NCBI GenBank assembly: GCA_030066595.1
Contig: JASJBI010000003.1
Location: 1 to 64,000 of the forward strand
Length of the DNA: 64,000 bases
DNA from: Alphaproteobacteria bacterium
Lineage (GTDB): Bacteria; Pseudomonadota; Alphaproteobacteria; JAJFFI01
Direction: 5' to 3'
Under the pieces are notes generated by a model. The model was not told the DNA's origin. It saw only the letters and a program-made list of their open reading frames with translations, and ran no database searches. Each line of letters opens with the position of its first letter. Within the stretch, counting starts at the first letter, position 1. The position numbers and the translations under genes are program-made. This document shows positions 8,125-21,129 of this stretch, piece by piece.

Positions 8125-8141
8125 TGTTCGTATCTGAAACA
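8125..8141. promoter_or_regulatory. Candidate sigma-54 activator site, TGT-N11-ACA
   Basis: TGT at 8125-8127 and ACA at 8139-8141 are separated by 11 nt. The element includes part of a perfect inverted repeat ATCTGAAACAGAT (8132-8144). It lies about 131 bp upstream of the -24 GG of the sigma-54 promoter at 8271. A second palindrome, ACAAATTTGT, lies near 8160. The same TGT-N11-ACA spacing recurs at the other two sigma-54 promoters of the locus. Confidence 0.45.
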
Positions 8142-8270
8142 GATTTCTCTTGCCTGTGACAAATTTGTATAGTCCGTGAAACGGCCAGCCCGCGGCGCGA
8201 GCGCCAAAAAGCCGCCGAATCCGGCCAAAATGCTAGCTGGATCAAAGGATTGCCCATGTCGGGCTTGACA

Positions 8271-8286
8271 TGGCACGGGCTTTGCA
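8271..8286 (+). promoter_or_regulatory. Sigma-54 promoter
   Basis: TGGCACGGGCTTTGCA matches the sigma-54 consensus TGGCACG-N4-TTGCW exactly, with GG at 8272-8273 and GC at 8284-8285 and the required 10 nt between them. The start site should fall near 8296, about 60 bp before the coding start at 8360. Confidence 0.88.
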
Positions 8287-8359
8287 AATAGTTAACAGTA
8301 AATGAAGGGGGCGCGGCGGCTGGGGACCGCGCGCTTTTCAATTGGGAGTTTCGAGACCC

Positions 8360-8713
8360 GTGGTCAGACTATTCGATACGTCAGGTTACCGACGAGGCCG
8401 TTGTCTGCTCGCCGGCGCTGCGTTTGTCGCGGTGGCCAGCGTCGCGACAACGGCGCAGGCGGCGCCCGTACGGCTCGTCCAGCAAGACGAGCTTGGGCTG
8501 GGTGCCAACGCCGTGTTCGATGACGAGCTCAAACAACAGCGCGGTGCGGGACTGGATTCGGGCTCGCCCGCCGCGCTGAGCGGCGCGCCCGGCAACAGCG
8601 ATGTGGCCGTGATCCTCTGGGACGACTATCCCGACGGTCCGGCGACGACCAATCCGGGCATGACGCTGAGCGGCAACGTCAACGTGAACTCGGTCACCGG
8701 CGCCGGCCGCTAA
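8360..8713 (+). CDS. Small exported protein with double-glycine-like motif
   Basis: No family recognised. The protein is 117 residues with a Sec signal peptide: RRGR, then a hydrophobic core, then a TAQA|A cleavage site near residue 34. The mature part carries DELKQQRGAGL (residues 55-65), shaped like a double-glycine leader motif. A related motif occurs in the exported protein at 15485-16006 and in the lipoprotein at 14079-15086. Its end (SGNVNVNSVTGAGR) resembles the VSVNSV stretch near the C-termini of the two large paralogues downstream. The GTG at 8360 is preferred to the TTG at 8342 because GGGAG precedes it. It is driven by the sigma-54 promoter at 8271. Role inferred: accessory secreted or fibre-associated component. 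Confidence 0.7.
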   Translation: MVRLFDTSGYRRGRCLLAGAAFVAVASVATTAQAAPVRLVQQDELGLGANAVFDDELKQQRGAGLDSGSPAALSGAPGNSDVAVILWDDYPDGPATTNPGMTLSGNVNVNSVTGAGR

Positions 8714-8741
8714 GGGCGCATCCGCAATTCGGCGCAGCGGG

Positions 8742-8772
8742 GCGGAATGGGCCGGCGGTCGGCCGGTTCCGC
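8742..8772 (+). terminator. Hairpin after small exported gene
   Basis: GCGGAA (8742-8747) pairs with TTCCGC (8767-8772), and GGCCG (8750-8754) with CGGCC (8760-8764), around a 5-nt loop. No clear T-run follows, so this is either a weak terminator or a 3'-end stabiliser 28 bp after the stop codon. Confidence 0.4.
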
Positions 8773-9038
8773 TCCACCCTTTCCGCGCGCCCGGCTGCCG
8801 GCTCCGCGGGCTCCTGTCACCAATAGAAAAGCTCATGCGAAATCCGGACGGCTCCGGGGCTGCGCGGGGCCGGGCCAAGGGGCCTCGGGCGCGCCTCGTT
8901 GGGCCGTCCGTGAAGCCGCGAGAAACGCCCTTCGGACAGCCGCCCGGCGGCGGGCCTGCGGGTCGATCGGCGCCGGCCGGCCGCACGCGGCGCGCGGCCA
9001 CGGTCGGAAGAGCGTAGTGCGGCCAAATGGTTAACGAC
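8773..9038. other. Non-coding stretch before the second sigma-54 unit
   Basis: I see no gene or clear signal here. It precedes the activator-site region at 9039-9077. The open frames are GC-rich shadows without a start signal or motif. Confidence 0.5.
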
Positions 9039-9077
9039 TGTTCATCTGCTTAACACTCTGTTAATCGCCATTAACAG
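9039..9077. promoter_or_regulatory. Cluster of activator-site-like inverted repeats
   Basis: Three overlapping elements lie about 85-105 bp upstream of the sigma-54 promoter at 9159: TGT-N11-ACA at 9039-9055, the perfect repeat TTAACACTCTGTTAA at 9050-9064, and CTGTTAATCGCCATTAACAG at 9058-9077 (8-bp arms, 4-nt centre). The AT-rich cluster stands out against GC-rich surroundings and sits at the usual distance for an enhancer-binding protein. Confidence 0.6.
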
Positions 9078-9158
9078 GCTCCGTCTCGGAATCGGACCGG
9101 TGCCGAGGAGCCGCGAAAATTCTTCCTAAATGTCAGGTATTTATCCCGCGGCTCGTTC

Positions 9159-9174
9159 TGGCACGGCTCTTGCT
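9159..9174 (+). promoter_or_regulatory. Sigma-54 promoter of the main operon
   Basis: TGGCACGGCTCTTGCT matches TGGCACG-N4-TTGCW exactly, with GG at 9160-9161 and GC at 9172-9173, 10 nt apart. Transcription would begin near 9184, giving a leader of about 200 nt before the first large exported protein. Confidence 0.9.
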
Positions 9175-9368
9175 ACCTTAACCGCGAGAGCAGGGAGGTG
9201 TGCTCCGGTTAGCGCTGGTTGCCAAGCGGGATCGCCCGCTCCGCGCAGTGCAGGGGTCAACCCCAATCCGCTGGTTAAAGCGGGGCACCAGGGCGTTACC
9301 CGCGACGCGGCCTCCCAATTCGAGAGAGGGTCCAGATAGGAGCCTGAGACTTGGTTAAGAGAGGACGC

Positions 9369-9389
9369 ATGACGGAGGACATAAGATGA
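9369..9389 (+). other. Possible six-codon leader ORF
   Basis: ATG at 9369 opens a frame for MTEDIR that ends at TGA 9387-9389. That stop overlaps the ATG (9386-9388) of the 568-residue protein, and AGAGGA lies just upstream. It could couple translation or be chance. It lies at the end of a leader of about 200 nt that also contains a CCGCT/AGCGG hairpin. Confidence 0.25.
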
Positions 9390-11092
9390 AGAATTCTTTA
9401 TTGGGGACCGCCTCGGCGCTTGCCCTGATCTGTGCCTTGGGTACAAGTCAGGCCTGGGGCCAGGCTGTCAACAGCGGCAATGAGGCCGGGGATGGTACGA
9501 ATCAGCAGGTCGGCAACGGCAACCTGAACCTCTCCGACCCGGGCAATGACGGCAACACGGGTCAGCAGACCGATGGGGCCGCCGCTGATATCCAGAACGG
9601 CACGACCAACACCAACGGCGTTCTGAGCCCGGCCATCGGCAACGACGTGCAGACCAGCACCGACGGCGGCCACAACTCCAATGGTGTCGACAGCCCGATC
9701 AACACCGGCGCCGGCTCCGGCAGTTCGACCGGCGAAGGCAGTATCGGCAGCGATCTGCAGGCCAACAACGGCCACGCCTCCAACGGCATCTTCAGCCCCG
9801 TCAACGTCAACGCTGACGGCAACCAGGCCGGCGGCGACGTCCAGACCGGTGGTGAAAACACCATCAACATGGAGGACAACAACCAGTTTGGCGAAAACAA
9901 CGCCGCGGAAGGCGGCCAGAACGCCGGCGTCGCGGCCTTCGGTGGTGGCAACGGTGGTGGCAACGAAAACGGCGACGGCAGCGACGGCAACGCCGTTGCG
10001 GGCGACAACGCGGCCGCCGGGATGGGATTGGCCATCGCCACCGATGACATTGACATTGCGGTCAGCATCGGTGACATCGGCATCGCCCTGAGCACGGCCG
10101 AGCTCAACCAGGTTGCCATCATTCAGACCGCCACCTTCGTCGGCGGCGAGGGCGCCTGGGGCGGCAGCGCGGCTGCCGAGAGCGGCGCCGGGGCCGAGGG
10201 CCAGGCCTTCAACCAGGCGACAAACAACGCCAACGCCAACGCGTCGGCCGGAGGCGAAGGTTTTGCGCAGGCCGAGGGCGGCAATATCGGCGTCAACGAG
10301 GCCGATGTCGACGCCGAGGCCAACGGCAACGACGGCGTTGACGGCGACACCGGCAACACCTCCTACGCCGTCAGCGCGCATAACGGCCTGAACGGCAACG
10401 GCCACAACGGCCAGAACGGGGCCGCGGCCGAAGGCGGCGCCAACTTCACCGGCGACAACACGGCCAACGGCGGTCGTGGCGGCCAGGGCGGCAACGGCAC
10501 CGGCGACGGCGGCCCGGGCTCCGTCCTGAACCTGGACGACATTGAAGTGTCGGTCGGCGGCGACGGCGGCGAAAACGACGAGGGCTTCTCCCAAGGCGGC
10601 GAAGGCAGTGGCGGCGGCACCGGCGGCCTGAGCGGCCAGAACGGCGGCAACTTTGCCGGCGGCGGCACGGCCTCGGCCGGCGGCAACGGCAACGCCGACA
10701 ACGGCGGCAACGGCGCGGGTGCGACCACCGGTGACACCAACAACGCCGGCACCGGCAGCGGTGTGGCGGAGGCGGGTGATATCGATGACACCACCCAGAA
10801 CCAGACCGCGGCGGCCAACGCCAGCGCCGGCAACGGTGGCACCGCCACGGCCAATCCGGCCAACGTGGACAACAGCCAGACCGCAGTGTCGGATGTCAGT
10901 GCCTTGGCCGACGGCGACGCCACCGCCGGAAACGGCGGCAACGGCGGCGATGTCGGCTTTGCTGTCAACCCCATGGGCTTCTCCAGCGCGTTCAGCAACA
11001 TGACCGTGTCGGTGAACAGCGTGCGGGGAGGCGTCAACAACATGGACCTTGGCACGGTCAACGTGAACGTGGCCAACGGCACCATCCAGTAA
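9386..11092 (+). CDS. Large Asn/Gly-rich exported protein, candidate fibre subunit 1
   Basis: 568 residues with a signal peptide (MKNSLLGTASALALICALG, cleavage near AWG-Q at residue 25). The mature protein is very rich in Gly, Asn, Ala, Asp and Thr, acidic, and free of cysteine. Residues about 65-150 hold three degenerate copies of an SNG-x-SP ... D-x-Q unit. IAIxxSTAELNQ...QTATFVGG lies around residues 230-252. The second half is built of NGGNG-type runs, and the end is TVNVNVANGTIQ. It is a close paralogue of the next gene, 19 nt away. The RBS is GGAGG at 9374. FapC-like fibre subunits share the exported, Asn/Gly/Gln-rich character, but I do not see their GVNxAA repeats or CxxC end. Function inferred, not shown. 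Confidence 0.75.
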   Translation: MKNSLLGTASALALICALGTSQAWGQAVNSGNEAGDGTNQQVGNGNLNLSDPGNDGNTGQQTDGAAADIQNGTTNTNGVLSPAIGNDVQTSTDGGHNSNGVDSPINTGAGSGSSTGEGSIGSDLQANNGHASNGIFSPVNVNADGNQAGGDVQTGGENTINMEDNNQFGENNAAEGGQNAGVAAFGGGNGGGNENGDGSDGNAVAGDNAAAGMGLAIATDDIDIAVSIGDIGIALSTAELNQVAIIQTATFVGGEGAWGGSAAAESGAGAEGQAFNQATNNANANASAGGEGFAQAEGGNIGVNEADVDAEANGNDGVDGDTGNTSYAVSAHNGLNGNGHNGQNGAAAEGGANFTGDNTANGGRGGQGGNGTGDGGPGSVLNLDDIEVSVGGDGGENDEGFSQGGEGSGGGTGGLSGQNGGNFAGGGTASAGGNGNADNGGNGAGATTGDTNNAGTGSGVAEAGDIDDTTQNQTAAANASAGNGGTATANPANVDNSQTAVSDVSALADGDATAGNGGNGGDVGFAVNPMGFSSAFSNMTVSVNSVRGGVNNMDLGTVNVNVANGTIQ

Positions 11093-11111
11093 CGAATTCG
11101 AGACGGAGGAC

Positions 11112-12761
11112 ATGAAAATGAAAAACACTCTCTTGGGAACGGCCTCGGCGCTGGCTCTGGTGCTGGCAATGGGTCAGGCTTGGGCCCAGCCGATCAACAG
11201 CGGCAACACCGCTGGCAACGACACCAATCAGCAGATTGGCTCGAGCAATACCAATGTCAGCAACCCGGGCAACGACAACAACAGCGGTCAGCAGACCGAC
11301 GGGTTTGCTTCGGACATCCAGAACGGCGTCACCAACACCAACGGCGTTCTGAGCCCGGCCATCGGCAACGACGTGCAGAGCAGCACCTCGGGCCACAACT
11401 CCAATGGCGTCGGCAGCCCGGTCAACACGGGCGCTGGGGCCGGCAGTTCGACCGACGGCGTCGGCAGCGATCTGCAGGCCAACAACGGCCACGCCTCCAA
11501 TGGCATCGGCAGCCCGATCAACGTCAACGGTTCGGGCAACCAGGCCGGCGATGATGTCCAGGAAGGCCTGATCAACCTGGATGACAACAACCAGTTCGGC
11601 ACGAACAACGCCAGGAGCGGCGGACAGAACGCCGGCGTGGCGGCCTTCTACGACAGCGACGGCAACGCCGTTGCGGCCGACAACGCGGCGGCTGGCATGT
11701 TCGCGATCGCCACGGACTCGATTGACATCGGCATCAGCATCGATGACATCGGCCTGGCGGTGAGCACGGCCACGCTCAACCAGATCGGCATCGTCCAGAC
11801 CGCCACCTTCATCGGCGGCAACGGGGCCGAGGGTGGCAGCGCGATTGCGGCCAGCGGCGCCGGAGCCGAGGGCCAGGCCTTCAACCAGGCGACAAACAAC
11901 GCCAACGCCAACGCGGACGCCGAGGGCCATGGCATCGCGGTCGCCCACGCCGGGAATTTCGGCGTCAACGAAGCCGACGCCGACGCCGACGCCAACGACA
12001 ACGACGGGGTTGACGGCAACACCGGCAACACCTCGGCCGCGGTCAGCGTGGGCAACGGCCTGAACGGCAACGGCAACAACGGCGGCAACGGCGCTGCCGC
12101 GGGCGGCGGCTCCAACGACACCGGCGGCAACACCGCCAACGGCGGTGCCGGCGGCCAGGGCGGCAACGGCACCGGCAACGGCGGTGCGGGTTCCATCCTG
12201 AACCTGGACGACATTGCCGTTTCGGTCGGCGGCGAAGGCGGCACCAACAACGGCGTCTCCATCGGCGGCGAGGGCGAAGGCGGCGGTAACGGCGGCCTGA
12301 GCGGCCAGAACGGCGGCAACGTCGCCACGGGCGGTGCGGCCGGGGCCGGCGGCAACGGCAACTCCGGCAACGGCGGTAACGGCGCCGGCGCCACCACCGG
12401 CAACACCACCAACGGTGGCTCCGGCAGCGGCACGGCGACGGGTGGCACGATCGACGACACCACCCAGAACCAGACCGCGGGCGCCAATGCCGAGGCGGGC
12501 AACGGCGGCACGGCCACGGCTGGCCCGTCCAACATCGTCAACGGCCAGTCGGCGTCGTCCACTGTCAGCGCCACGGCCGACGGTGATGCCACGGCCGGCA
12601 ACGGCGGCAACGGCGGCAGCATCGTGTTCGCCACCGGTGGCATGTCGTTCACCAGCTCGTTCAACGACTTGACGGTGTCGGTGAACAGCGTCACCTCGGG
12701 CCTCAACAGCCTGTCTATGGGGACGGTCAATGTGAACGTGGCCAACGGCACGATCCAATAA
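11112..12761 (+). CDS. Large Asn/Gly-rich exported protein, candidate fibre subunit 2
   Basis: 549 residues, paralogous along its whole length to the preceding 568-residue protein, with the same order of parts: signal peptide ending near QAWA-Q, SNG-x-SP repeats, IQTATF-type module (QTATFIGG at residues 229-236), NGGNG-rich half, and the ending NVNVANGTIQ. It starts 19 nt after the previous stop with GGAGG before the ATG; M3 is an alternative start. A GC-rich hairpin follows it. Most differences between the two proteins are small indels in the repeat region, so this looks like a tandem duplication kept under constraint. Likely co-exported with its paralogue. Confidence 0.75.
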   Translation: MKMKNTLLGTASALALVLAMGQAWAQPINSGNTAGNDTNQQIGSSNTNVSNPGNDNNSGQQTDGFASDIQNGVTNTNGVLSPAIGNDVQSSTSGHNSNGVGSPVNTGAGAGSSTDGVGSDLQANNGHASNGIGSPINVNGSGNQAGDDVQEGLINLDDNNQFGTNNARSGGQNAGVAAFYDSDGNAVAADNAAAGMFAIATDSIDIGISIDDIGLAVSTATLNQIGIVQTATFIGGNGAEGGSAIAASGAGAEGQAFNQATNNANANADAEGHGIAVAHAGNFGVNEADADADANDNDGVDGNTGNTSAAVSVGNGLNGNGNNGGNGAAAGGGSNDTGGNTANGGAGGQGGNGTGNGGAGSILNLDDIAVSVGGEGGTNNGVSIGGEGEGGGNGGLSGQNGGNVATGGAAGAGGNGNSGNGGNGAGATTGNTTNGGSGSGTATGGTIDDTTQNQTAGANAEAGNGGTATAGPSNIVNGQSASSTVSATADGDATAGNGGNGGSIVFATGGMSFTSSFNDLTVSVNSVTSGLNSLSMGTVNVNVANGTIQ

Positions 12762-12778
12762 ACATTCGGGAAACCTCA

Positions 12779-12807
12779 ACGCCGGCGGGCCGCGCGCCCG
12801 CCGGCGT
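12779..12807 (+). terminator. Strong GC hairpin between subunit genes and downstream genes
   Basis: ACGCCGGCGGG (12779-12789) pairs perfectly with CCCGCCGGCGT (12797-12807) across a 7-nt loop. Only a weak CCTTT follows. It is 18 nt after the stop of the second large subunit and 43 nt before the next gene. It could act as a partial terminator or mRNA stabiliser that keeps subunit expression above that of the assembly genes. Confidence 0.6.
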
Positions 12808-12849
12808 CCTTTCCCGAAGGTTGTCGGATCAAGTCAGGGAGACACGACC

Positions 12850-13269
12850 GTGAATAGACTTGTGAAGTGCGGATGTGTGCCGGCGGTAATGCTGGCATTT
12901 AGCGTCTTGGGCGGCGGCCAAGCGGTTGCCGACGAGGATGCTCTTGCACCGGGCGGCGAGGTGATCGATGTGACCTTCGCCAGCGCGGAGGTGTCCGTGG
13001 ACGTGCTCGACAGCGAGCGGGCCATGGCGGAAGTGGACATCGAGATCGACTTGGACGATGTCGCCATCGGCGTTTCGTCGGCAGAAGGCGAGCAAAGCCA
13101 CAATACGCAGACGATGACCTTCAACTCGGGTGGCGGCAACATCGACAAGGACACCGGCGCCATCGTCGGATCCCTCTCGAACAACACGCTTTCGGTCGGC
13201 ATGTTCAATACCGGAGACGACAACATCATGGGCGCGAACATATCGTTCAACCTCATCATCCAGCAGTAG
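12850..13269 (+). CDS. Small exported protein with QTxTF module
   Basis: 139 residues with a signal peptide (cleavage near QAVA-D, residue 27). The mature chain is acidic: VSVDVLDSERAMAEVDIEID, then DVAIGVSSAEG..NTQTMTFNSGG around residues 70-94. The end (MGANISFNLIIQQ) resembles the MGTVNVNV..TIQ end of the two large paralogues, so it looks like a cut-down version lacking the NGGNG region. The start is GTG with AGGGAG upstream. It lies between the large subunits and the C39 peptidase. It may be a minor subunit, nucleator or periplasmic chaperone. In size it is comparable to FapA, but I see no sequence proof of that. Confidence 0.68.
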   Translation: MNRLVKCGCVPAVMLAFSVLGGGQAVADEDALAPGGEVIDVTFASAEVSVDVLDSERAMAEVDIEIDLDDVAIGVSSAEGEQSHNTQTMTFNSGGGNIDKDTGAIVGSLSNNTLSVGMFNTGDDNIMGANISFNLIIQQ

Positions 13270-13349
13270 CGCCCGCACCCGCGGTTCGGCGGCGATGGCC
13301 GCCGGCTGCGAGATGCAAGGCACGGCCCACCAAGTAGGGGAGGGATGAG

Positions 13350-14066
13350 ATGATGAGAGCCGCGTCCATCGGACTGATCGTTTTCTGCTCCGTCAGCGTT
13401 GCGGGGTTGACCAGCGCACGCTTCGCCGAGGCCGGCGAAGTTTCCATTTTTGCCGGCGTGGGTGGGGCAAACTACTCGGTGCCGGTGACCACGGTGCGCG
13501 AGGCCCGCTTCAAGACGGTCATCAGACAGCAGTACGATTTCAGCTGCGGCTCGGCCGCAGTGGCCACGCTGCTGTCCTACCATTACGACAAGCAGACCAC
13601 CGAGGCCGAGGTCTTCAAGGCCATGTGGGCGGTCGGCAACAAGAAGAAGATCCGTCGAGAGGGCTTTTCCCTCCTGGATATGAAGCGGTATCTCGAGGCC
13701 CGCGGCTATCGCGCCGACGGCTATCGCGTAAAGTTCGACGTGATCGAGAAGGTGGGCGTGCCCGCCATCGTTTTGATCAACGTGCGCGGCTACCGCCACT
13801 TTGTCGTCATCAAGGGCGTCCGCGGCGACCAGGTTGTGGTCGGCGATCCGGCGCTGGGCGTCAAGGTCTACAAGCGGGCCGAGCTCGAGGCGATCATGGC
13901 AAGCGATGTGGTCTTTCTGATTCGCAATCGCGCGCAGGTCGCCAAAGCGAATTTCAACAAGGAACGGGACTGGGGCGTGCAGCCGAACGCGCCGTTGCGT
14001 GATGCAATGGAGCGCGACGGGCTCAGCATCTTTACCACGCTGCCCTCGGGCCCGGGCGAGTTCTAG
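13350..14066 (+). CDS. Periplasmic C39-family cysteine peptidase, FapD-like
   Basis: 238 residues with an N-terminal signal sequence and a papain-fold C39 domain. The predicted triad is visible: Cys66 in QYDFSCGSAA, His150 in RGYRHFVV and Asp166 in VVVGDPALG, with Gln60/61 for the oxyanion hole. Unlike bacteriocin-processing C39 domains, no ABC transporter is fused or nearby, which is also the situation in FapD of the Pseudomonas amyloid operon. The RBS is GGGGAGGG before ATG 13350. It is 13 nt before the lipoprotein gene. Probable role: cleaving one or more exported proteins of this locus during assembly, perhaps at the E/D-L-x3-R-G motifs. Confidence 0.85.
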   Translation: MMRAASIGLIVFCSVSVAGLTSARFAEAGEVSIFAGVGGANYSVPVTTVREARFKTVIRQQYDFSCGSAAVATLLSYHYDKQTTEAEVFKAMWAVGNKKKIRREGFSLLDMKRYLEARGYRADGYRVKFDVIEKVGVPAIVLINVRGYRHFVVIKGVRGDQVVVGDPALGVKVYKRAELEAIMASDVVFLIRNRAQVAKANFNKERDWGVQPNAPLRDAMERDGLSIFTTLPSGPGEF

Positions 14067-14078
14067 GGGGAGCGAGAC

Positions 14079-15086
14079 ATGATCAGGAAAGATCAAGCCG
14101 GGTTTCGACCCGTGTCTTGCCGAGGTTTCAGAACGACTCTCATGGCGGCCGCCGCAGCGATCTCGTTGAGCGGCTGTTCGACCTGGCAATCGATCGTCGA
14201 GGTGGTCTTCGGCGATCCCACGGAGCCGACACCGCAGATCATTGCGACGGCTCCGCTGAGTGGGGTTTCCCAAGAGCCGCTGGGTGCGGTCCTGGAACCG
14301 GGCGAGAGTCAGCCGTTGACCTGGGTCGCGGGAAGCGGCGGCGAGACACCGGTGACGGAGATCGCCGATCAGGCCGAGCAGGATGGCTTGACCGGAATCG
14401 ACACGGCGGCATCGGACGACATCCTTGCCGAAATCGCGGCTGCGACCGCGGAGTACGACAACGATGCGCCTGTACAGATCGCCTCGGCGGGCGAGCTGGA
14501 CGACCTGCGCGGCGGCTTCATCACCAATGTTGGGGTGTTCGCCGTAGGGTTTGACGTGAAGACGTTCGTCGACGGCGTGCTTCAGGTTCACAACGTGTTC
14601 AACATGGTCGGCGACGTCGCCGGCCTCAACGAAGAGATCACCCAGGACGTGAACAGGTCGCTCTCGGTGCAGCTGCAATCGGGCGTTCAGCAGAGCGGCG
14701 GCGGCGGCAGCGTGTCGGCCGAGCAGACCACGGGGGGGACGCCGCCGCCCAGCAACCCGGCTCCGGAGACGCAGGCGACTGCGGCTGCGGCGGAGCCAGT
14801 TAGCCCGACGGTCACCAACGTCAACTCTCCTGAGCCGTTCACAGTGGAGGACCAGCTCAACGGCGGCCAGACGACGGTCGTCACCGAAGTCGGCGGCGGC
14901 ACGGTCAACACGATCGTCACAAACACCGCGAGCGGGGTGAGCGTCCTGCAGATCAACAGCATCATTCTCGGCGTTACGGATCCACACGGTTTCGTGGGCA
15001 CCGTCGAGACCGGCATCAAGACGAACTCGGTGCGCAGCATGCAGAACAGCATGCGCGATGCGTTGATCGGCTCGATCGCTCGCTGA
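14079..15086 (+). CDS. Lipoprotein with internal double-glycine-like motif
   Basis: 335 residues. A lipobox (LSGC, lipidated Cys33) follows an arginine-containing, Ala-rich signal. Residues 135-147 read ASAGELDDLRGGF, matching the double-glycine leader consensus LSxxELxxIxGG at nearly every key position. Next is a hydrophobic stretch (ITNVGVFAVGFDVKTFVDG), then a Gly/Ser/Pro/Thr-rich linker (about 205-250), then a Val/Thr-rich tail with repeated short beta-prone segments. It is the last gene before a strong terminator and sits where fapE lies in Pseudomonas operons. A periplasmic or outer-membrane assembly factor, possibly cleaved by the adjacent C39 peptidase, is inferred. Confidence 0.68.
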   Translation: MIRKDQAGFRPVSCRGFRTTLMAAAAAISLSGCSTWQSIVEVVFGDPTEPTPQIIATAPLSGVSQEPLGAVLEPGESQPLTWVAGSGGETPVTEIADQAEQDGLTGIDTAASDDILAEIAAATAEYDNDAPVQIASAGELDDLRGGFITNVGVFAVGFDVKTFVDGVLQVHNVFNMVGDVAGLNEEITQDVNRSLSVQLQSGVQQSGGGGSVSAEQTTGGTPPPSNPAPETQATAAAAEPVSPTVTNVNSPEPFTVEDQLNGGQTTVVTEVGGGTVNTIVTNTASGVSVLQINSIILGVTDPHGFVGTVETGIKTNSVRSMQNSMRDALIGSIAR

Positions 15087-15122
15087 CGGAACGGGGAACG
15101 GCCGAGGACCGAGGGGGAGGCG

Positions 15123-15154
15123 CTCGGGCGGCCACTGGCCGCCCGAGTACTTTT
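15123..15154 (+). terminator. Rho-independent terminator of the main operon
   Basis: CTCGGGCGGCC (15123-15133) pairs with GGCCGCCCGAG (15137-15147) across a 3-nt loop, followed by TAC and TTTT (15151-15154). It lies 37 bp after the lipoprotein stop and closes the plus-strand operon. Confidence 0.85.
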
Positions 15155-15155
15155 G

Positions 15156-15484
15156 TCGGTCAACTCGAAAAGACGACGCCCCTGGCCGGGGATGCTGCCG
15201 GCCTTGCCGGAGAACGGGACCCCGTCGGAGCGGGCAGCGGGGCCGCACAGGCCATTCCGCCCAGCGCGCAAATCATTGCTCGGATGATGTTCAGATCGTG
15301 GCGCCGGCTCGAGCGCGCTCCGGCCATACCATGACGGGCCGCCGAGGGGGCCGTCGGCAGCGGACATCTGCGCTGCCGCTGCCCTCATCCGATGCGATCT
15401 GATCGCCTTGAGGGGCGGCGACACGCACTCCGCCACGCCCGAATCGCAGCAGACGAGCCGAGTTCTCTATGGTCGGAAAGTGCG
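15156..15484. other. Convergent intergenic stretch
   Basis: This is the gap between the plus-strand operon and the convergent gene ending at 15485. I see no gene with family features, only a short CCCC/GGGG hairpin near 15180. It may hold a minus-strand terminator I could not define. Confidence 0.45.
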
Positions 15485-16006
15485 CTAGAAGCCGGCGGTG
15501 CTGCCCGCGCTGTTGACGGCGGCGTTGCCGGCGGAGCCGAGCGCGCCCGCGCCGCTGCCCGCGCTTCCCAGGCCGCCGGCACCACCCATGCCGCCGGTAA
15601 AGGTGGCGGTCTGGTTGATCGACGACTGCGTGAGCGTCACGTTGCTGATCGCGACCGAGCCGCTGTTGATGGAGACGCCGATGCTGCCAACTCCGCTGGT
15701 CAGGCCAGTCTCGGTTGCCGCAACCGCGCCGTCCGGCAGGGCGCCATCGTTTTGCGCGCCCGGATCCTGCGCGCCGGTTGGGTCCTCTTCCTCCAATCCC
15801 AAGCCGCGCTGGCGGCTCAGGTCCTGTTCGGCAACGGCGGCACCGAGACGCAGCTCCGCCGGCGGCGCCGATCCGACATCGCCCGCCTGCGCCTCGAGCG
15901 ACAGGCCCATTGCAGCAAGCAAGGCGGCCGTCGCGGCCAGCCAGCCGAGGCTGATTGCGCTTCTGTCGCGCTCCGCATGCGAACCGGAGAAAGATCTTGT
16001 GTTCAT
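15485..16006 (-). CDS. Exported Gly/Ala-rich protein with QTxTF and double-glycine-like motifs
   Basis: 173 residues from ATG 16006, preferred over the upstream TTG because GAGAGG lies 7 nt before it and a clean signal peptide follows (cleavage near AQAG, residue 41). Residues 62-71 read DLSRQRGLGL, like the motif in the small protein at 8360. A beta-prone segment (GVSINSGSVAISNVTLTQ) leads into QTATFTGG (132-139), the module shared with three plus-strand proteins. The C-terminal 35 residues are silk-like Gly/Ala/Ser ending in Phe. It has its own sigma-54 promoter. Function unknown; probably a fibre-associated or nucleating component. Confidence 0.68.
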   Translation of the reverse strand: MNTRSFSGSHAERDRSAISLGWLAATAALLAAMGLSLEAQAGDVGSAPPAELRLGAAVAEQDLSRQRGLGLEEEDPTGAQDPGAQNDGALPDGAVAATETGLTSGVGSIGVSINSGSVAISNVTLTQSSINQTATFTGGMGGAGGLGSAGSGAGALGSAGNAAVNSAGSTAGF

Positions 16007-16077
16007 ACCCATACCTCTCGAGCCCACCGACTCCATTGATCCGCGGGCCCTTTGTTGGCCTTCGCGTCCATTTGCAA

Positions 16078-16092
16078 GCAAGCATTGTACCA
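16078..16092 (-). promoter_or_regulatory. Sigma-54 promoter, minus strand
   Basis: Read on the minus strand it is TGGTACAATGCTTGC, followed by TT: TGG-x-AC, then TTGC, with GG and GC exactly 10 nt apart. It deviates from consensus at two -24 positions. It would give a leader of about 60 nt before the exported Gly/Ala-rich protein. Confidence 0.75.
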
Positions 16093-16164
16093 CCGGTGTC
16101 TGTCCTGGCAAGTCATTGTTTTTTAACCAATTCGATCACGGCCGCGAGCCTTGGCGGCGTCCAA

Positions 16165-16185
16165 GCTGTATCATCTTGGTACAGC
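16165..16185. promoter_or_regulatory. Candidate activator site, TGT-N11-ACA
   Basis: Inverted repeat GCTGTA-N9-TACAGC containing TGT-N11-ACA (16167-16183). It lies about 76 bp upstream of the minus-strand sigma-54 promoter, with the same spacing as the elements at 8125 and 9039. Confidence 0.5.
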
Positions 16186-16799
16186 GCTGTTTCAAGTGTG
16201 AGACTCGGCCGCCGCGAGAAACGGGGCCCGACGCACTCCTTGGATTTCTGCCCACCTCGGAAGGCCAGGGCTGCGGGCTGGCACTGGCAGAAAGGGGTCC
16301 AGGCCTCGGGAGGCAGCAACGGCCGCCGCTCATCGCAGGGCCATCGCGCCTGGTCCGCCGGGGCAGATCATAACCAAGCGGCGACGGCGCACCGTCGGTA
16401 GCGGCGTTCCACTGGCGGGTGTCGAGCCCATGCCCGCAACCTCTACCTTTACCCGGCACTCTCGCGGCCTGGAGGCCTGATTCGAAACGGATAAAGGGCG
16501 GCTAGATCGATTTCGATTGCACCGCCGGCCATTGCCGTGGTCGTCGCGCCCGAAGGGCGCTGGACAACCGAGCCAGCATCGGCTGCGCCGATGCGTTCGG
16601 CACGGCCACCTATGGCAGCATCCTTGGGGCGGACGGGTGGGATCGGCCGGGGCCGATCCCGTCAAGACAGGAACGGCGTTCTAACCCCAGACCTGACCGC
16701 ACAAACGCCCCCTGTGCCACGTCGCACAGCGCGGTACGTGGGTCCCGGGAAAATCCGCTCTGGTTGGCAGGCGTCTGAGCCGCCGGAGGATGCTCGTGC
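16186..16799. other. Intergenic stretch between two minus-strand genes
   Basis: About 610 bp without a gene I can support. Overlapping open frames on both strands lack start signals, signal peptides and motifs. TGGCACTGGCAG near 16274 is not a sigma-54 promoter because the -12 element is missing. No T-tailed hairpin for the gene ending at 16800 is evident. Confidence 0.45.
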
Positions 16800-18146
16800 T
16801 CAGAAGACGTTGAACTTCCAGGGTACCCGCAGCGTCATCACGACGTCCGGCGCGTTTTCCGTGACGCCCGCCTGAACGCTCAGGTTGATGGAGACCTGGG
16901 GGCTGATCGCGTAGCTGTAGCCGACCAGCAGCGAGCCCACATCGAGATCCTGGGACCTGAAGGTCACGCCGTCCCGCTCGGTCTCGGTTTCCCAAATGAA
17001 GTTGTGCTCGTAGCCCAGGCTGATCGAGGTGCGTTCGTTGAGCCCGATGCCCATGCCGAAGGAGATGCTCAGCACATCGCCCGGATCGACATCGCCGATG
17101 CGCTGGCCGGCAATGACCTTGTCGACGTTGCGCTCGAGGTGGAACAGGTACTTGGTATTGGCGAAGAACACCGCCGGGTCGGTGCCGAACAGCATGGTCA
17201 GACCCGGTTCGACGCCCCAGAAGCCCGATCCTCTGGCCAGTTCCGTTTCGATTCCATTGGCGTCGCGGCTGACCTCAAAGGGGCCCCTGCCGGTATCGCT
17301 CTTGGCCCGAACGGCGCCGACGAAGATCGGCCAGCCTTCCTGGCCGCTGTTGATCTGGTAGCGCACCGAGCCCTCGACGTCCCCGATGCCGTTGCCATCC
17401 AGGCTGTTGGTCTGGGAGGTGCTGGTTGCCCCGACCACCTGGGAGGTGACGCGATCGTCACGATACACATAGGGGATCCGGATCTCGGCTTCCGAGCGGT
17501 TGGTGATGCCAGTGCGGAAGGTGGCCCGGCCGATGATGCTGTCCCGGTCGGAGTCCGTGGCCTCGATCTGACCGATCAGGACCGTATCGACGATCTCCAG
17601 GCCCTGGAAGAAGAACCGGTTGATGTTGGATTGCGAGTACTCCACCGACGGCTCGATCACCAGGGTCCCCGGCGTGGTCAGCACGCCGCCGGCCTCGTAC
17701 ACACCGGCAAGCTCGCGGCGATCCTGTTGCTCCTTCTTCTTCAGGTCCTCCCCAACCGGCTTCTGCGGCGTCCCCTGCTGGCTCTGCGCGGGCTGCTTCT
17801 TCTGTTGCTCCGCGGCCCGCCGCGTCTGTGACCCGCCCTGTGTGCCGGCGCTAGGCCGATAGACGGCCCGTTTCGGCCCCGCCGAGCCGGGCCGGACGCG
17901 CACCTGTTTTTCCAGCTGCTCGAGCCGCCGGGTTTGATTGCTCAACAGCTTCTGCTGCTGTTCAAGCTTCTGGTTTTGCCTGGCAACGATGTCCAGCAGC
18001 TTTTGCAGGTCCTGTGAGGTGACTTGCGACGTGTCCGCCTTCTCGTCGGCGGCCAAAACCGATGTTCCAAAGAGCAACGCCATGAGCGCCGCGGACCCGA
18101 TCAGCGTCGCCCGCCACGCCTGCCGAGACTCTTGCCTTTTTTTCAT
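16800..18146 (-). CDS. Outer-membrane beta-barrel with N-terminal coiled coil, FapF-like
   Basis: 448 residues from ATG 18146 (an upstream in-frame start would bury the signal). Signal peptide to about residue 32, then a Gln/Leu/Lys coiled coil (QDLQKLLDIVARQNQKLEQQ and on, residues 45-82), a polar linker rich in Gln/Pro/Lys (85-145), then a barrel opening with GGVLTTPGTLVIEPSVEYS. Alternating beta-strand patterns continue to a terminal Phe (VPWKFNVF). Coiled coil, linker, barrel and total length match FapF, the trimeric amyloid-export pore of Pseudomonas (about 430 residues). It could also be a general meta-pathway-type barrel, but the coiled coil and neighbours favour FapF. It lies between the sigma-54 activator and the Gly/Ala-rich protein gene. 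Confidence 0.78.
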   Translation of the reverse strand: MKKRQESRQAWRATLIGSAALMALLFGTSVLAADEKADTSQVTSQDLQKLLDIVARQNQKLEQQQKLLSNQTRRLEQLEKQVRVRPGSAGPKRAVYRPSAGTQGGSQTRRAAEQQKKQPAQSQQGTPQKPVGEDLKKKEQQDRRELAGVYEAGGVLTTPGTLVIEPSVEYSQSNINRFFFQGLEIVDTVLIGQIEATDSDRDSIIGRATFRTGITNRSEAEIRIPYVYRDDRVTSQVVGATSTSQTNSLDGNGIGDVEGSVRYQINSGQEGWPIFVGAVRAKSDTGRGPFEVSRDANGIETELARGSGFWGVEPGLTMLFGTDPAVFFANTKYLFHLERNVDKVIAGQRIGDVDPGDVLSISFGMGIGLNERTSISLGYEHNFIWETETERDGVTFRSQDLDVGSLLVGYSYAISPQVSINLSVQAGVTENAPDVVMTLRVPWKFNVF

Positions 18147-18371
18147 GCCCACGTCCGGTCCCCCGAATGCACGCAACACCGGCTGTTGCTGCCGACCTGA
18201 GGTCAAGCGTACCCGAAAGTTGTCCTAGCATAGTTCAATGTTGCCACGCCACAGTCGAAGCCGAACGTGCAAAAGATTCTCTTGGACCGTGGCGATAGGG
18301 AAACACTTGTAAACCCGCTGGTACACGCCTAAAGGGGAGCCCTCGCAAGCCCGTCGCCGGATTTGCGCCGT

Positions 18372-19604
18372 TTAATCGGTCTGGAGCTGGTATTTCTCTA
18401 TCAGACGGTACAGCGTGACCCGGGAGACGCCCAGACCCCCGGATGCCTTGGAGATATTGCCCGAATAATGAAGTAAAGCCCGCTGAACCAGGGCCTTCTC
18501 AACCGTGTTGCGCGCCGTCTCCAAAGTAGGCAGATCCTCGCCGAAGGCGACCGAGAAGCCGCTCTGCGGCGCTGCGGCCGTTGGCGCCACACCAGGGCCT
18601 GACAAAGCGGCGGTCGACCGGCCTCTCGCGCCGCCAATGGCGCTCAGATCCAGGTCACTGGCCGTGATTCGGCCTTCGTCCACCATAACCACGGCGCGCC
18701 GCACCCGGCTGATCAGCTCGCGAACATTGCCGGGCCAGTCATGCTCCTGCATGGCTTGGACCGCAGAATCGGCGAACCCGTCCACGGGACGGTTCATCTC
18801 TGTGGCGAACTTCTTGAGGAAGAAGGTGGCGATCAGATAGATGTCGTCGCCCCGGTCGCGCAGGGGCGGCAGTTCCAGCATCAAGGTGTTCAGCCGGTAA
18901 AACAGGTCCTCGCGGAACCGGGCGGCTCCGATTTCGGTCGACAGTTCCTTGTTGGTCGCGGCGATGATCCGCGCGCTGACTGGAATCGACCGGTGGCCGC
19001 CCAACCGCTGAATCATTCCCTCCTGCAGGAAGCGCAGCATATGGGACTGCAGTTCAAGCGGCAGGTCGCCGATCTCGTCCAGGAACACGGTGCCACCGTT
19101 GGCGGCCTCCAGCCGCCCGATCTTGCGCTGAGTCGCGCCGGTGAACGCGCCCTTCTCATAACCGAATAGCTCGGAATCGATCAGCGTCGGCGGCAGGCCG
19201 GCGCAGTTGATCGCCACAAAGGGCCCGGAGCGGTACTCGGACCGTTCGTGGATGGCCAGGGCCGCGAGTTCCTTGCCCGTGCCGCTCTCACCCGTGATCA
19301 GAACCGGGGCGTTGGTAATCGCGAAACGACGAATCAGATCGAAGGCAACCCGCATGGGCTGGCTGCAGCCGATCATGTACGGCTCGTCGACCGTCAGCTC
19401 GCGACCGCCGGGCCGCGCCTCGGCGGCTGCCGAGTGCGCATACGGATCCTGCTTCGCGGGAGACGGCGCGGGGTCGGCGTAGCTTACTTCGCCGTCGGAC
19501 GGTGTGTGGACCCTTGTTGCAAGGCCACTGTCAACCGCCCACGCTGGGGATCTCCCCAGCTCACTCCCCAGGCTTTCCCCCTTGGAAACCCCGTTCTTTG
19601 GCAT
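18372..19604 (-). CDS. Sigma-54-dependent transcriptional activator
   Basis: Enhancer-binding protein of 410 residues from ATG 19604 (AGGAGGG 9 nt upstream; the GTG at 19628 lacks one). An unstructured N-terminal 75 residues has no recognisable receiver, GAF or PAS domain. The AAA+ domain follows: Walker A GESGTGKE (about 105-112), the sigma-54 contact loop GAFTGA (152-157), Walker B GTVFLDEIG, and the arginine-finger region. A Fis-type HTH (ISKASGGLGVSRVTLYRLIE) ends the protein. The three sigma-54 promoters nearby are its obvious candidate targets. Without a sensory domain it may act constitutively once made, or be controlled by level or by a partner. Its stop is 225 bp before the barrel start. 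Confidence 0.92.
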   Translation of the reverse strand: MPKNGVSKGESLGSELGRSPAWAVDSGLATRVHTPSDGEVSYADPAPSPAKQDPYAHSAAAEARPGGRELTVDEPYMIGCSQPMRVAFDLIRRFAITNAPVLITGESGTGKELAALAIHERSEYRSGPFVAINCAGLPPTLIDSELFGYEKGAFTGATQRKIGRLEAANGGTVFLDEIGDLPLELQSHMLRFLQEGMIQRLGGHRSIPVSARIIAATNKELSTEIGAARFREDLFYRLNTLMLELPPLRDRGDDIYLIATFFLKKFATEMNRPVDGFADSAVQAMQEHDWPGNVRELISRVRRAVVMVDEGRITASDLDLSAIGGARGRSTAALSGPGVAPTAAAPQSGFSVAFGEDLPTLETARNTVEKALVQRALLHYSGNISKASGGLGVSRVTLYRLIEKYQLQTD

Positions 19605-19947
19605 GTACGTGCGCCCTCCTGGCAGCACACGGTATCAGAGAAGAACTTGATCGCTTTTCTAAGTTAGCGATAATTCTAGCATGAAAGCGCTATTTCCTGA
19701 AACGAAAATTTTATGACAAAGTCTTTAAAGGTTCGTTGCTTGTGTTGTTGGCGCAACACCGAACATCTTAACTAGTGTTTCCCGAAACCCTACACGCCAA
19801 ATAATCGGTGATAGACTGTACGTGTAGGCTCAGAATTCCCTCACGCATGGTGAAGACTTCGGACAGACGACTTCCAGAGTTCACCAGAATACCTCCACTC
19901 GGTGAATCTCGCAAAGCCGATCCCGCGCGCCCCGCAGCGGGCCTCGG
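19605..19947. promoter_or_regulatory. AT-rich control region of the activator gene
   Basis: A marked drop in GC relative to the flanks. It holds GTGTTG-N6-CAACAC (19742-19759) and GTTTCCCGAAAC (19777-19788). The 10-mer AGTGTTTCCC (19774-19783) recurs inverted at 18298-18307, downstream of the activator gene. The region probably contains the activator promoter; I found no sigma-54 promoter in it on the minus strand. No gene is supported here. Confidence 0.4.
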
Positions 19948-21129
19948 TCATCCGACGCTCATCACCTGCGCCCCCAGCCCCAGCCGGTCCGATTCGCGAC
20001 GCACCTCGGTCTCATAGATCGGATTCATGACAATGATCACGTCGGGCGGCTCCGAACGCAACGCCGCGGGTGCGAGGACGGGGCTGGCTGTACCCGGTAC
20101 GAATCGGCCCTGCTTGCGTGGGTTGAGGTCGACGATCCCGTAGGGCCGTATCTCCTGGGCGACCAGGTTCACAAAGGTCACCCCTTTGGATCCGGCGCCC
20201 CAAACCGCGACCCGTTGCCCGGCCTCGGTCAGATCGGCGCACAGCGTGCGCCAGCGCTTCAGGGTGGCTTGCAGCCGGGCCGGGAAGGCGCCTACCAGGG
20301 CCGCGGTCTCCGCCAGGACGTCGGTCCGCGGGTCTGCCAAGCGCGGCCTGCAGGCGGTCGGGGACGCCTCGGCGGCGAGGAACTGCCCACCGAACGCCTC
20401 GACCAGCGAGGCCACAGAGAGCCCACCATCCTCGAGCAGCCGGGACAGCGAGGCCGCCGTGAAATAAGAGCAGTGCTCGTAGATCAGGTCCCAGATGCCC
20501 AGCTCGCGCAAGGTGAACAGCGCGTTCGGAACCTCGAAGTACACCACCGTTTCAGGTCGGTCCCCAATGCCACGGCGGACCGCCGCCACCAGCTCGTGCG
20601 GTTCGGCAAGATGCTCCAGCACGTGGCGGCAGATGACCAGGTCGGCGCGGTCATAGACGGCCTGCGGCGGCGCGGCCTCCCGCGATACGGAAACCGCCTC
20701 GGGCAGCGACTGGCCATCCGCGGCGGCCGCGTAGCTCTGGTCGAAGCCCAACCCCTGACAGCCGCCCCGCTCACACAAGAGCGCCAGGAAGTCGCCCTGA
20801 CCGCAGCCGATTTCGACGGCGGTCTTGCCCCGCAGGCCGTAGCGTGCGATCAGCCGGTCGGCAAGCTCTTCGGCGTAGCGCCGAAAACGGGGCGAGAAAT
20901 GCTGCGAGGTCTCGTAGTCCGCGTCGTAGCTCAATCGTGCCGGGTCGAAGCTCCGGTTGAACAGGTGGCCGCAGTCCGGACAGAACGCCAGCTGTATGGT
21001 GCCGCTCGGTACCGCCCGTGCCGCATCCGCCGTCGCCAATAGCAGATTGCAGTGGAGCGGGACCGGCCCAAACTCGAGCACAAGCCTCAGCTGCGCCGCG
21101 TCACAGACGATGCAGCTCGACTCATCCAT
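19948..21129 (-). CDS. Class I SAM-dependent C-methyltransferase-like protein
   Basis: 393 residues with the three-part build of sugar C-methyltransferases. A zinc-binding N-terminus has CIVC and later CPDC (Methyltransf_13 type). A Rossmann methyltransferase core has the SAM motif VEIGCGQGDFLALL near residue 108. A C-terminal domain has VAVWGAGSKGVTFVNL and ends in DVIIVMNPIYETEV. It is the third of three related genes in a row and overlaps the previous one (ATGA-type). It probably acts on an NDP-sugar or a related polysaccharide building block; the substrate is unknown. The downstream end lies in the AT-rich gap before the activator gene. Confidence 0.82.
   Translation of the reverse strand: MDESSCIVCDAAQLRLVLEFGPVPLHCNLLLATADAARAVPSGTIQLAFCPDCGHLFNRSFDPARLSYDADYETSQHFSPRFRRYAEELADRLIARYGLRGKTAVEIGCGQGDFLALLCERGGCQGLGFDQSYAAAADGQSLPEAVSVSREAAPPQAVYDRADLVICRHVLEHLAEPHELVAAVRRGIGDRPETVVYFEVPNALFTLRELGIWDLIYEHCSYFTAASLSRLLEDGGLSVASLVEAFGGQFLAAEASPTACRPRLADPRTDVLAETAALVGAFPARLQATLKRWRTLCADLTEAGQRVAVWGAGSKGVTFVNLVAQEIRPYGIVDLNPRKQGRFVPGTASPVLAPAALRSEPPDVIIVMNPIYETEVRRESDRLGLGAQVMSVG

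Follow-up and report, generated by a model that had tools for sequence, protein, structure and literature searches.

The Fap system, whose genes follow the one-strand order fapABCDEF, is the closest described relative of the locus that we examine here, and it combines a periplasmic C39 peptidase, FapD, with a channel of the FapF family. The export of Fap amyloid requires FapD. In the consulted sections of one study, the cysteine of FapD is needed, with a Cys-to-Ala mutant of Pseudomonas FapD abolishing FapC secretion; peptides cover FapA to FapD throughout, the initial ~70 residues of FapE yield none, and processing of the FapF linker is considered possible (PMC5557850). The same sections state that Fap proteins are without canonical C39 sequences (PMC5557850, 2017), and the substrate of FapD is called unclear there in 2017 and to be determined in the corresponding part of a 2018 review (PMC6173800). 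As for the distribution of the system, an excerpt of a 2013 paper gives fapA as absent from 6 of 16 fap genera and fapF as detached in 4 of 16 (PMC3792158), while 25 genera are added by the 2018 review, in its consulted part (PMC6173800). The published leader of C39 peptidases is, in the text available, Leu(-12)-X3-Glu(-8)-Leu(-7) with a double Gly, where positions -4, -7 and -12 lie in the enzyme groove (PMC6363468).

Here, we have analysed a stretch of 64 kb of alphaproteobacterial DNA, which we refer to as “the window”, and have found a locus that belongs to a FapD/FapF-type clade separate from canonical Fap. We hold, with a probability of roughly 0.7, that it is a sigma-54-switched surface-fibre export system of that separate clade, in which the C39 peptidase would cut a leader and the channel would export the subunits. 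The features of the locus are the following:

8271..8286 (+), putative promoter, perfectly matching the sigma-54 -24/-12 pattern (TGGCACGGGCTTTGCA), 55 bp ahead of ORF 8342
8342..8713 (+), small exported protein with degenerate leader DDELKQQRGA and VILWDD motif
9159..9174 (+), another putative sigma-54 promoter with a perfect match (TGGCACGGCTCTTGCT), ahead of the subunit operon
9386..11092 (+), fibre-subunit candidate 1, exported, Gly/Asn/Ala-rich, 568 aa
11112..12761 (+), fibre-subunit candidate 2, exported, Gly/Asn/Ala-rich, 549 aa, 75% identity to candidate 1
12850..13269 (+), small exported protein that weakly resembles a portion of the subunits
13350..14066 (+), C39 cysteine peptidase of the FapD/FilB family, stand-alone and exported by Sec, 238 aa
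14079..15086 (+), lipoprotein (Cys33 lipobox) with leader AGELDDLRGG, at a FapE-like position
15485..16111 (-), exported protein that resembles a portion of the subunits, probably starting at an ATG near 16012
16077..16092 (-), putative sigma-54 promoter, one mismatch (TGGTACAATGCTTGCT), ~65 bp ahead of the probable start of the 15485 gene
16800..18206 (-), outer-membrane export channel of the FapF type, with a barrel and a coil at the N-terminus, start more likely at 18146
18372..19628 (-), sigma-54 activator with AAA+ and Fis-type HTH, directly upstream of the barrel gene

Every component named in the preliminary description, i.e. the paralogues, a small exported protein, the C39 peptidase, the lipoprotein, the barrel and the activator, is present. 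The alphaproteobacterial origin that it suggested is supported indirectly. It did not mention the exported proteins at 8342-8713 (+) and at 15485 to about 16012 (-), the two perfect and the single-mismatch sigma-54 sites, or the double-glycine-like leader of the lipoprotein.

Among the NCBIfam models, the C39 protein is matched best by FapD (4.9e-46, 156.8 bits, below the equivalog cut-off of 330), followed by FilB (127.9 bits) and the bacteriocin exporters (at most 44 bits), in line with its proposed kinship to FapD over non-FapD families; its residues Cys66, His150 and Asp166 are invariant in 12/12 aligned rows. It is also the sole match of PF03412 in the 90%-complete genome assembly (open frame 242 aa), so that no C39-type ABC exporter has been found there, and the earlier reading of this protein as a C39 peptidase without an ABC transporter stands; bacteriocin export has been rejected on the same ground. 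With the C39 ABC exporters LahT and ComA the window shares the peptidase family and a leader with L(-12), E(-8), L(-7), a hydrophobic residue at -4 and G at -2 and -1, as described in the consulted text (PMC6363468), but its peptidase is Sec-exported without an ABC transporter, and its leader comes after a Sec or lipoprotein signal. In the C39 tree, the window protein lies outside the clade of canonical FapD (100/99), within a separate 95-row clade (100/98); the locus is, therefore, a relative of Fap and not a fap operon.

The barrel matches the FapF model at 168.3 bits, along profile positions 18-420 of 420 (cut-off 700), and the FapF crystal chains at 7.6e-28 to 1e-26; its Pfam match, Phenol_MetA_deg, reaches 24 bits, barely above the cut-off of 22. 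An unrelated porin has been rejected by the crystal-chain matches, and the FapF comparison that the preliminary description had called for came out in favour of FapF. The conservation of the neighbourhood, on which it had also staked its reading, is seen in the FapF-type gene that is located at most 7.5 kb from the C39 gene in 73/80 loci selected by the C39 gene. In the window and these 73 loci, the barrel gene is downstream on the opposite strand, as in the window, in 30 cases; a downstream position on the same strand accounts for 33 cases and an upstream position for 11. L054, a locus of the window's own clade, has the same gene order as the window.

The putative pilus system Fil of Acinetobacter is also matched, by the FilB model at the 127.9 bits given above and by the FilC model at 53.3 bits, but these scores stand against cut-offs of 475 and 630, both are below those of the Fap models, and the other Fil models have no match among the locus proteins at E<=1. 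Curli, with its channel CsgG, also exports amyloid-type subunits through the outer membrane and works alike, but the channel is unrelated and we know of no peptidase in curli export.

Proteins encoded beside the C39 gene often carry a tag that resembles a leader, [VLI]xxxELxx[ML]RGG|F, spaced like the double-glycine leaders that C39 peptidases cut, with distances equal to those of the published leader in the consulted text (PMC6363468); from the comparison of such loci, it is probably a tag that the processing enzyme recognises. No earlier report of it has been found in the open-licence literature searched. Of the 120 ORFs chosen on the downstream side of the C39 gene, 100 have the core motif, a count that is descriptive because the looser core pattern was set after these rows had been read; the controls are 33/498 flank genes and a mean of 6.6 (maximum 12) in 50 shuffles. 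The strict first pattern, with D/E at -8, is found in 40/120 downstream ORFs, 7/122 upstream ORFs and 6/112 FapF sequences. By group, the core occurs in 18/19 canonical Fap loci, in FapE, and in 81/94 of the window clade, where 7 of the 13 misses have it farther in or in another ORF. Positions outside the search pattern are conserved as well, i.e. V/L/I at -12 in 86/95 and E at -8 in 44/95 unique motif windows, while Arg or Lys is located at -1 in 18/95, mostly in canonical FapE. The choice of ORFs relied on a simple script that made errors, and in some loci the barrel itself was taken as the downstream ORF (7/7 third-clade loci, L081).

A matrix trained on the downstream windows only also picks 64/122 upstream ORFs and 21/112 FapF N-termini, at thresholds that about 1% of flank genes pass and without training on either set. 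The upstream and downstream neighbour proteins are not fully independent witnesses, because their C-terminal parts are weakly similar (82% by hhalign over 36 columns; 1e-6 by blastp at best); FapF (21/112) is the more independent witness for the motif. At least two leader ORFs occur within 6 kb in 61/80 of the C39-selected loci, and 158 leader ORFs lie within 6 kb (876 kb searched), against 8 beyond it (550 kb). In canonical Fap loci, the motif is found in 0/19 ORFs just upstream of the C39 gene and in 2/18 FapF proteins; a leader-like stretch in FapA appears in 7/18 loci under a post hoc pattern, and the peptides reported throughout FapA, in the consulted part of PMC5557850, argue against it. 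No leader has been found in the window's own barrel. In the third C39 clade, 4/7 loci (L046, L047, L049 and L050) have upstream small proteins with leaders that appear, by eye, near-canonical GG leaders of the bacteriocin type.

The lipoprotein of the window consists of the lipid anchor at Cys33, a linker of ~100 aa, the leader AGELDDLRGG and a beta-rich C-terminal domain. Its leader scores 25.3 against a threshold of 6.5, the best of 444 window ORFs, and has E-8, L-7, L-4, G-2 and G-1 in place, with Ala, not L/V/I, at -12; it ends at residue 146, after which the cut is predicted. The AlphaFold model (mean pLDDT 59; used for the leader helix only) places a short helix, 137-143, on the leader. 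As the leader lies between the lipid-anchored linker and the beta-rich domain, a cut would free the domain from its anchor. A lipobox-like start is present in 8/100 leader-bearing picks, of which the window, L053 and L054 are most alike. The FapE model has no match among the locus proteins at E<=1, and hhalign relates 26 window-type proteins to 13 canonical FapE at 96.9% over 52 columns in the C-terminal part.

That the locus is under sigma-54 control, as had been suggested before, is well supported by the two perfect sites before locus genes and by the activator gene adjoining the barrel gene. These are the only two perfect -24/-12 sites on both strands of the 64 kb, against ~0.05 expected from base composition; 16077-16092 (-) and 25637-25652 are the only sites with one mismatch, and with up to two mismatches allowed, the window shows no enrichment of the pattern (28 sites vs 25.7 expected). 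The activator has no Pfam match to a receiver domain, and in 30/37 loci with an activator near the C39 gene it is located at most 800 bp from the barrel gene. BrfA, an activator of the sigma-54 type, reportedly acts on Fap in P. fluorescens, according to a title cited in PMC11999139.

Gly makes up about 23% of the two paralogues, and Asn 14 to 15%. As had been noted, they are without FapC-type repeats or a CxxC end: the FapB and FapC models have no match to either at E<=1, and one has a single Cys, within the signal peptide, while the other has none. Neither the subunits nor the small proteins are matched in Pfam/NCBIfam, where nine locus proteins were searched (for candidate 1, nothing at E<=1); five of the nine were also searched against PHROGs, with no match, phmmer has found no subunit homologues in the other examined loci, and the AlphaFold model of candidate 2 was uninformative (mean pLDDT 34) and discarded. 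The small protein 12850-13269 occupies the place of the leader-bearing small proteins of relatives, with no leader found in it; protein 8342-8713 has a leader score of 3.5, under the threshold of 6.5, and the leader-like QDLSRQRGLG of protein 15485 is visible by eye only, being below threshold and outside the top 14 window ORFs. Across 119 loci with a C39 gene, the motif [VIL][VIL][LI]WD[ED] occurs in 9 ORFs with lengths of 60-259 aa, and all 9 are located at most 7.5 kb from a C39 gene, with none farther away. In relatives, the small proteins have C-termini with IQNTGNNxxIQ-type repeats that recall Fap repeats by eye, and the linked large exported proteins of L039 and L054 are repetitive and Asn-rich.

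Taken as a working sequence of events, the local activator and RpoN would switch on the exported genes, whose products would reach the periplasm via Sec. There, the FapD-type C39 protein would dock on the leader helix, [VLI](-12)xxxE(-8)L(-7)xx[ML](-4)RGG, and cut after the glycines, in the window releasing the beta-rich domain of the lipoprotein. The processed FapE-like protein, perhaps together with a change in the periplasmic linker of the channel, would then open the FapF-type channel, through which the Gly/Asn-rich subunits would exit and assemble outside, possibly as amyloid. Computation shows the homology of peptidase and channel, the clade, the linkage of the genes, the promoter sites and the leader motif; the cleavage, the opening of the channel, the secretion and the nature of the fibre or amyloid are inferred.

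C39-like domains of some type I exporters are reported to bind without cutting, and the motif could be bound by the C39 protein in the same manner, as a tag for docking or chaperoning. We regard this as unlikely, although catalysis here is predicted from sequence and Arg/Lys at -1, seen in 18/95 unique windows, is unusual at a C39 cleavage site: the catalytic residues are invariant in all 12 rows, and the Cys-to-Ala mutant of FapD loses FapC secretion, according to the consulted part of PMC5557850. A similarly low probability is given to the channel exporting non-fibre cargo, such as small secreted peptides or an adhesin coat, with Gly/Asn-rich proteins that are not amyloid; the bacteriocin-type leaders of the third clade and the missing FapC match of the subunits speak for it, but the Fap-like repeats of the relatives' small proteins and the repetitive, Asn-rich proteins of L039 and L054 speak against it.

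The preliminary description had proposed a divergent, rearranged fap-type system, and its FapD/FapF homology holds; the locus also shares with Fap the leader motif, in a protein encoded beside the peptidase, and exported Gly/Asn-rich proteins. That the locus is a divergent canonical fap operon is, nevertheless, very improbable: the C39 tree separates the two, L054 has the gene order of the window, the FapA, FapB, FapC and FapE models have no match at E<=1, a lipoprotein takes the place of FapE, and the barrel gene, next to its own sigma-54 activator, is on the other strand, which departs from the one-strand order. Moreover, a complete fap-type operon exists in a genome of the window's class; the statement that fap had not been described from this class agrees with the consulted part of the 2013 paper (PMC3792158), but does not hold for that genome.

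Returning to the separate-clade export system, we see an even chance that FapD/FapF-type systems form a broad, largely unnamed “periplasmic double-glycine” export family, in which proteins would pass through Sec before a soluble C39 peptidase cuts a bacteriocin-type leader from FapE-like proteins, from small proteins in the place of FapA and, in part of the family, from FapF between coil and barrel, with the cut acting as the switch by which the amyloid channel is opened or completed. The motif names candidate FapD substrates, giving FapE, and FapF of some lineages, a single candidate site, and points to a possible link between processing and channel gating; the comparison also shows that canonical Fap makes up a single clade within a broader family that has other subunits.

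The locus is a sigma-54-controlled export locus of the FapD/FapF type that lies outside canonical Fap, i.e. the Pseudomonas-type fapABCDEF amyloid system, and has lineage-specific subunits. The parts named in the preliminary description are real, as ORFs and Pfam/NCBIfam searches show, and one exported protein is added to them here.

Genes of the locus, named by start coordinate
8342, +, small exported protein
9386, +, Gly/Asn/Ala-rich paralogue 1, 75% identical to 11112
11112, +, Gly/Asn/Ala-rich paralogue 2, 75% identical to 9386
12850, +, small exported protein
13350, +, C39 peptidase
14079, +, lipoprotein, lipobox Cys33
15485, -, exported protein, added here
16800, -, barrel
18372, -, sigma-54 activator

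The comparisons with FapD and FapF proposed earlier favour Fap over Fil, the putative pilus system of Acinetobacter: the best NCBIfam model is FapD for the peptidase (156.8 bits; FilB 127.9) and FapF for the barrel (168.3 bits, nearly the full profile; FilC 53.3), with all four scores under the curated cut-offs. A plain sequence search with the barrel also found the FapF crystal structures 5o67, 5o65 and 5o68 (7.6e-28 to 1e-26). Besides gene 13350, no second PF03412 match occurs in the window's genome, which is 90% complete.

In the tree of 122 C39 proteins, where the root is the midpoint and the “sister” status of clades depends on it, the canonical clade (19 canonical rows and L122_1; support 100/99) is separate from the window clade (95 rows; 100/98), and the rows nearest to the window are L053, a Pelagibius MAG, and L054, a Rhodospirillales MAG (87/91). 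The earlier reading as a Fap-type system thus stands as regards FapD/FapF-type homology, but not as regards membership of canonical Fap. The 18 loci called canonical (L032-L034 and L162-L176) include eight above the FapD cut-off (L162-L169), the others being assigned by gene order, family matches or the C39 tree. In a third clade (seven rows; 100/99), whose joining with the canonical clade is a possible long-branch effect according to the tree tool's warning, the C39 protein is likewise paired with a FapF-like barrel; in four of its loci (L046, L047, L049, L050), where this barrel adjoins, upstream small proteins carry, by eye, near-canonical bacteriocin-type GG leaders. Aidingimonas halophila (L122) has one window-clade and one canonical-clade C39 gene, and L170 has two adjoining canonical fap-type copies.

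The comparison comprises 121 loci (the window, L032-L131 and L162-L181), 119 of them with a C39 gene. Since L032-L051 were chosen by their barrel, linkage was counted in the 80 loci chosen by their C39 gene, i.e. the best 80 of at least 585 relatives. The neighbourhood, whose conservation had been left for checking, is kept: a barrel is located within 7.5 kb of the C39 gene in 73 of the 80, the other seven lying on stretches of 5.8 to 12.7 kb. Of the window and these 73 loci taken together, 30 have the barrel downstream and on the other strand, 33 have it downstream on the C39 gene's own strand, and 11 have it upstream. PMC6173800 (section 6) already notes that homologues of fapD and fapF lie together in five further phyla, so the linkage as such is not new. 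L054 has the window's entire gene order (subunit, small protein, C39, lipoprotein, and on the other strand barrel and activator), and L053 was compared from the small protein onward. L035 (G028:C15) has a FapF-type gene with internal stop codons around 9503-10489 and no C39 gene in the examined stretch, and is perhaps a decayed system.

The large paralogues and 12850 have no phmmer homologue in the other loci. Parts of both large paralogues resemble 15485 and an unlinked 138-aa exported protein on another contig (2.3e-8, 3.1e-7); the similarity of 12850 to such parts is weaker, with statistics inflated by low complexity. The 138-aa protein (G000:C57, near 20037-20453; L185:1453-1869) has the C-terminal part of the subunits and is possibly a minor subunit outside the locus; in its 3.3-kb locus L185, a scan allowing up to two mismatches gives no sigma-54-like site. 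Elsewhere, a probable giant subunit is encoded upstream of a C39 gene (L039:13104-19901, -); its open-ended frame gives a repetitive, Asn-rich protein with a length of at least 2,265 aa.

Sigma-54 control, as originally claimed, is borne out by two perfect sites, the only ones in the window, each ahead of a locus gene, by one rpoN match in the genome, and by the activator beside the barrel gene; 15485 has a one-mismatch site ahead of it. Perfect sites no farther than 5.5 kb from the C39 gene occur in 8/37 loci with a nearby activator (the window among them; base-shuffled controls 0 to 1), 3/44 without (controls 0 to 1) and 2/38 other loci (controls 0 to 2); if one mismatch is allowed, the counts are 28/37, 20/44 and 15/38. 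In 30 of the 37, no more than 800 bp separate the activator gene from the barrel gene. Also beside the window's activator gene, two adjacent paralogous proteins (19948-22357, -) are C-methyltransferase-like by eye.

The alphaproteobacterial source is indirectly supported by G334, a genome of the same class, which shares 93% identity over 12.9 kb with a contig labelled as Kiloniellaceae, an alphaproteobacterial family. The taxonomic order of the window is represented by two genomes in the collection. That Fap was undescribed from this class agrees with the accessible parts of a 2013 survey (PMC3792158), in which it is confined to the beta, gamma and delta classes, but the class does have a fap-type operon, L032, with six components matched: FapA (7.5e-5), FapB (6e-16), FapC (1.6e-20), FapE (1.5e-22), FapD (208 bits) and FapF (373 bits), all under curated cut-offs, while FapA, FapB and FapE of L162 exceed theirs in the same search. 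Its order is A-B-C-D-E-extra-F; L033 and L034 resemble it in gene order and C39 tree, on which their assignment is based. In all three (G145, G123:C3, G243), an additional exported protein is encoded between fapE and fapF, and FapD of L032 and L034 appears lipoprotein-like by eye.

The leader, a tag [VLI]xxxELxx[ML]RGG spaced like the double-glycine leaders of C39 substrates, has a core, L-x-x-x-R-G-(G/R/K/T)-x, that is present in 100/120 ORFs chosen as downstream neighbours of the C39 gene (50 shuffles: mean 6.6, maximum 12; flank genes: 33/498). By our grouping, it occurs in 18/19 such ORFs of canonical Fap, where the ORF is FapE, in 81/94 of the window clade, counting the canonical copy of L122, and in 1/7 of the third clade, whose picked ORF is the barrel; in seven of the 13 window-clade misses, the core is deeper in the ORF or in a different one. 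Position -12, which the pattern leaves free, holds V, L or I in 86/95 unique windows and -8 holds E in 44/95, preferences that belong to the C39 recognition pattern published in PMC6363468, in the portion available. A matrix built solely from these 95 windows, with thresholds that about 1% of flank genes pass, is passed by 64/122 ORFs upstream of the C39 gene (window clade 64/96; canonical Fap 0/19, where the ORF is FapC) and by 21/112 FapF N-termini, with leaders ending at residues 76 to 153. At least two passing ORFs lie within 6 kb in 61/80 C39-selected loci; the evidence is the second, since the first is expected from the training. In L100, L112, L066, L073 and L077, the motif is deep inside long ORFs, at about residue 400 to 680, a sign either of very long N-terminal regions or of starts set too far upstream.

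In the window, lipoprotein 14079 has the best leader score of 444 ORFs (25.3 vs 7.2 for the next), with a predicted cut after residue 146; a model of low overall confidence places a short helix at 137-143, followed by beta strands. Because the protein starts with a lipobox (Cys33), the cut would set a domain free of its lipid anchor. The leader of ORF 8342 is degenerate and scores under threshold, and its product has a WDE motif common to a small set of proteins seen solely near these C39 genes (nine near, none far), most with a leader-like stretch ahead of the motif. No leader was found in the window's barrel or in 12850.

According to the sections available of PMC5557850, the catalytic Cys of FapD is essential and its target unclear; FapE yields no peptides from about its first 70 residues, and the FapF linker is possibly processed. 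In canonical FapE of the compared loci, as distinct from UK4 FapE, the core starts at residues 32 to 77, ORF starts being possibly over-long. FapA has a leader-like stretch in 7/18 loci, which may remain uncut, since peptides were seen throughout FapA to FapD (same sections of PMC5557850). The wider value of the locus lies in the leader motif, which makes the question of FapD's target in Fap biogenesis directly testable.
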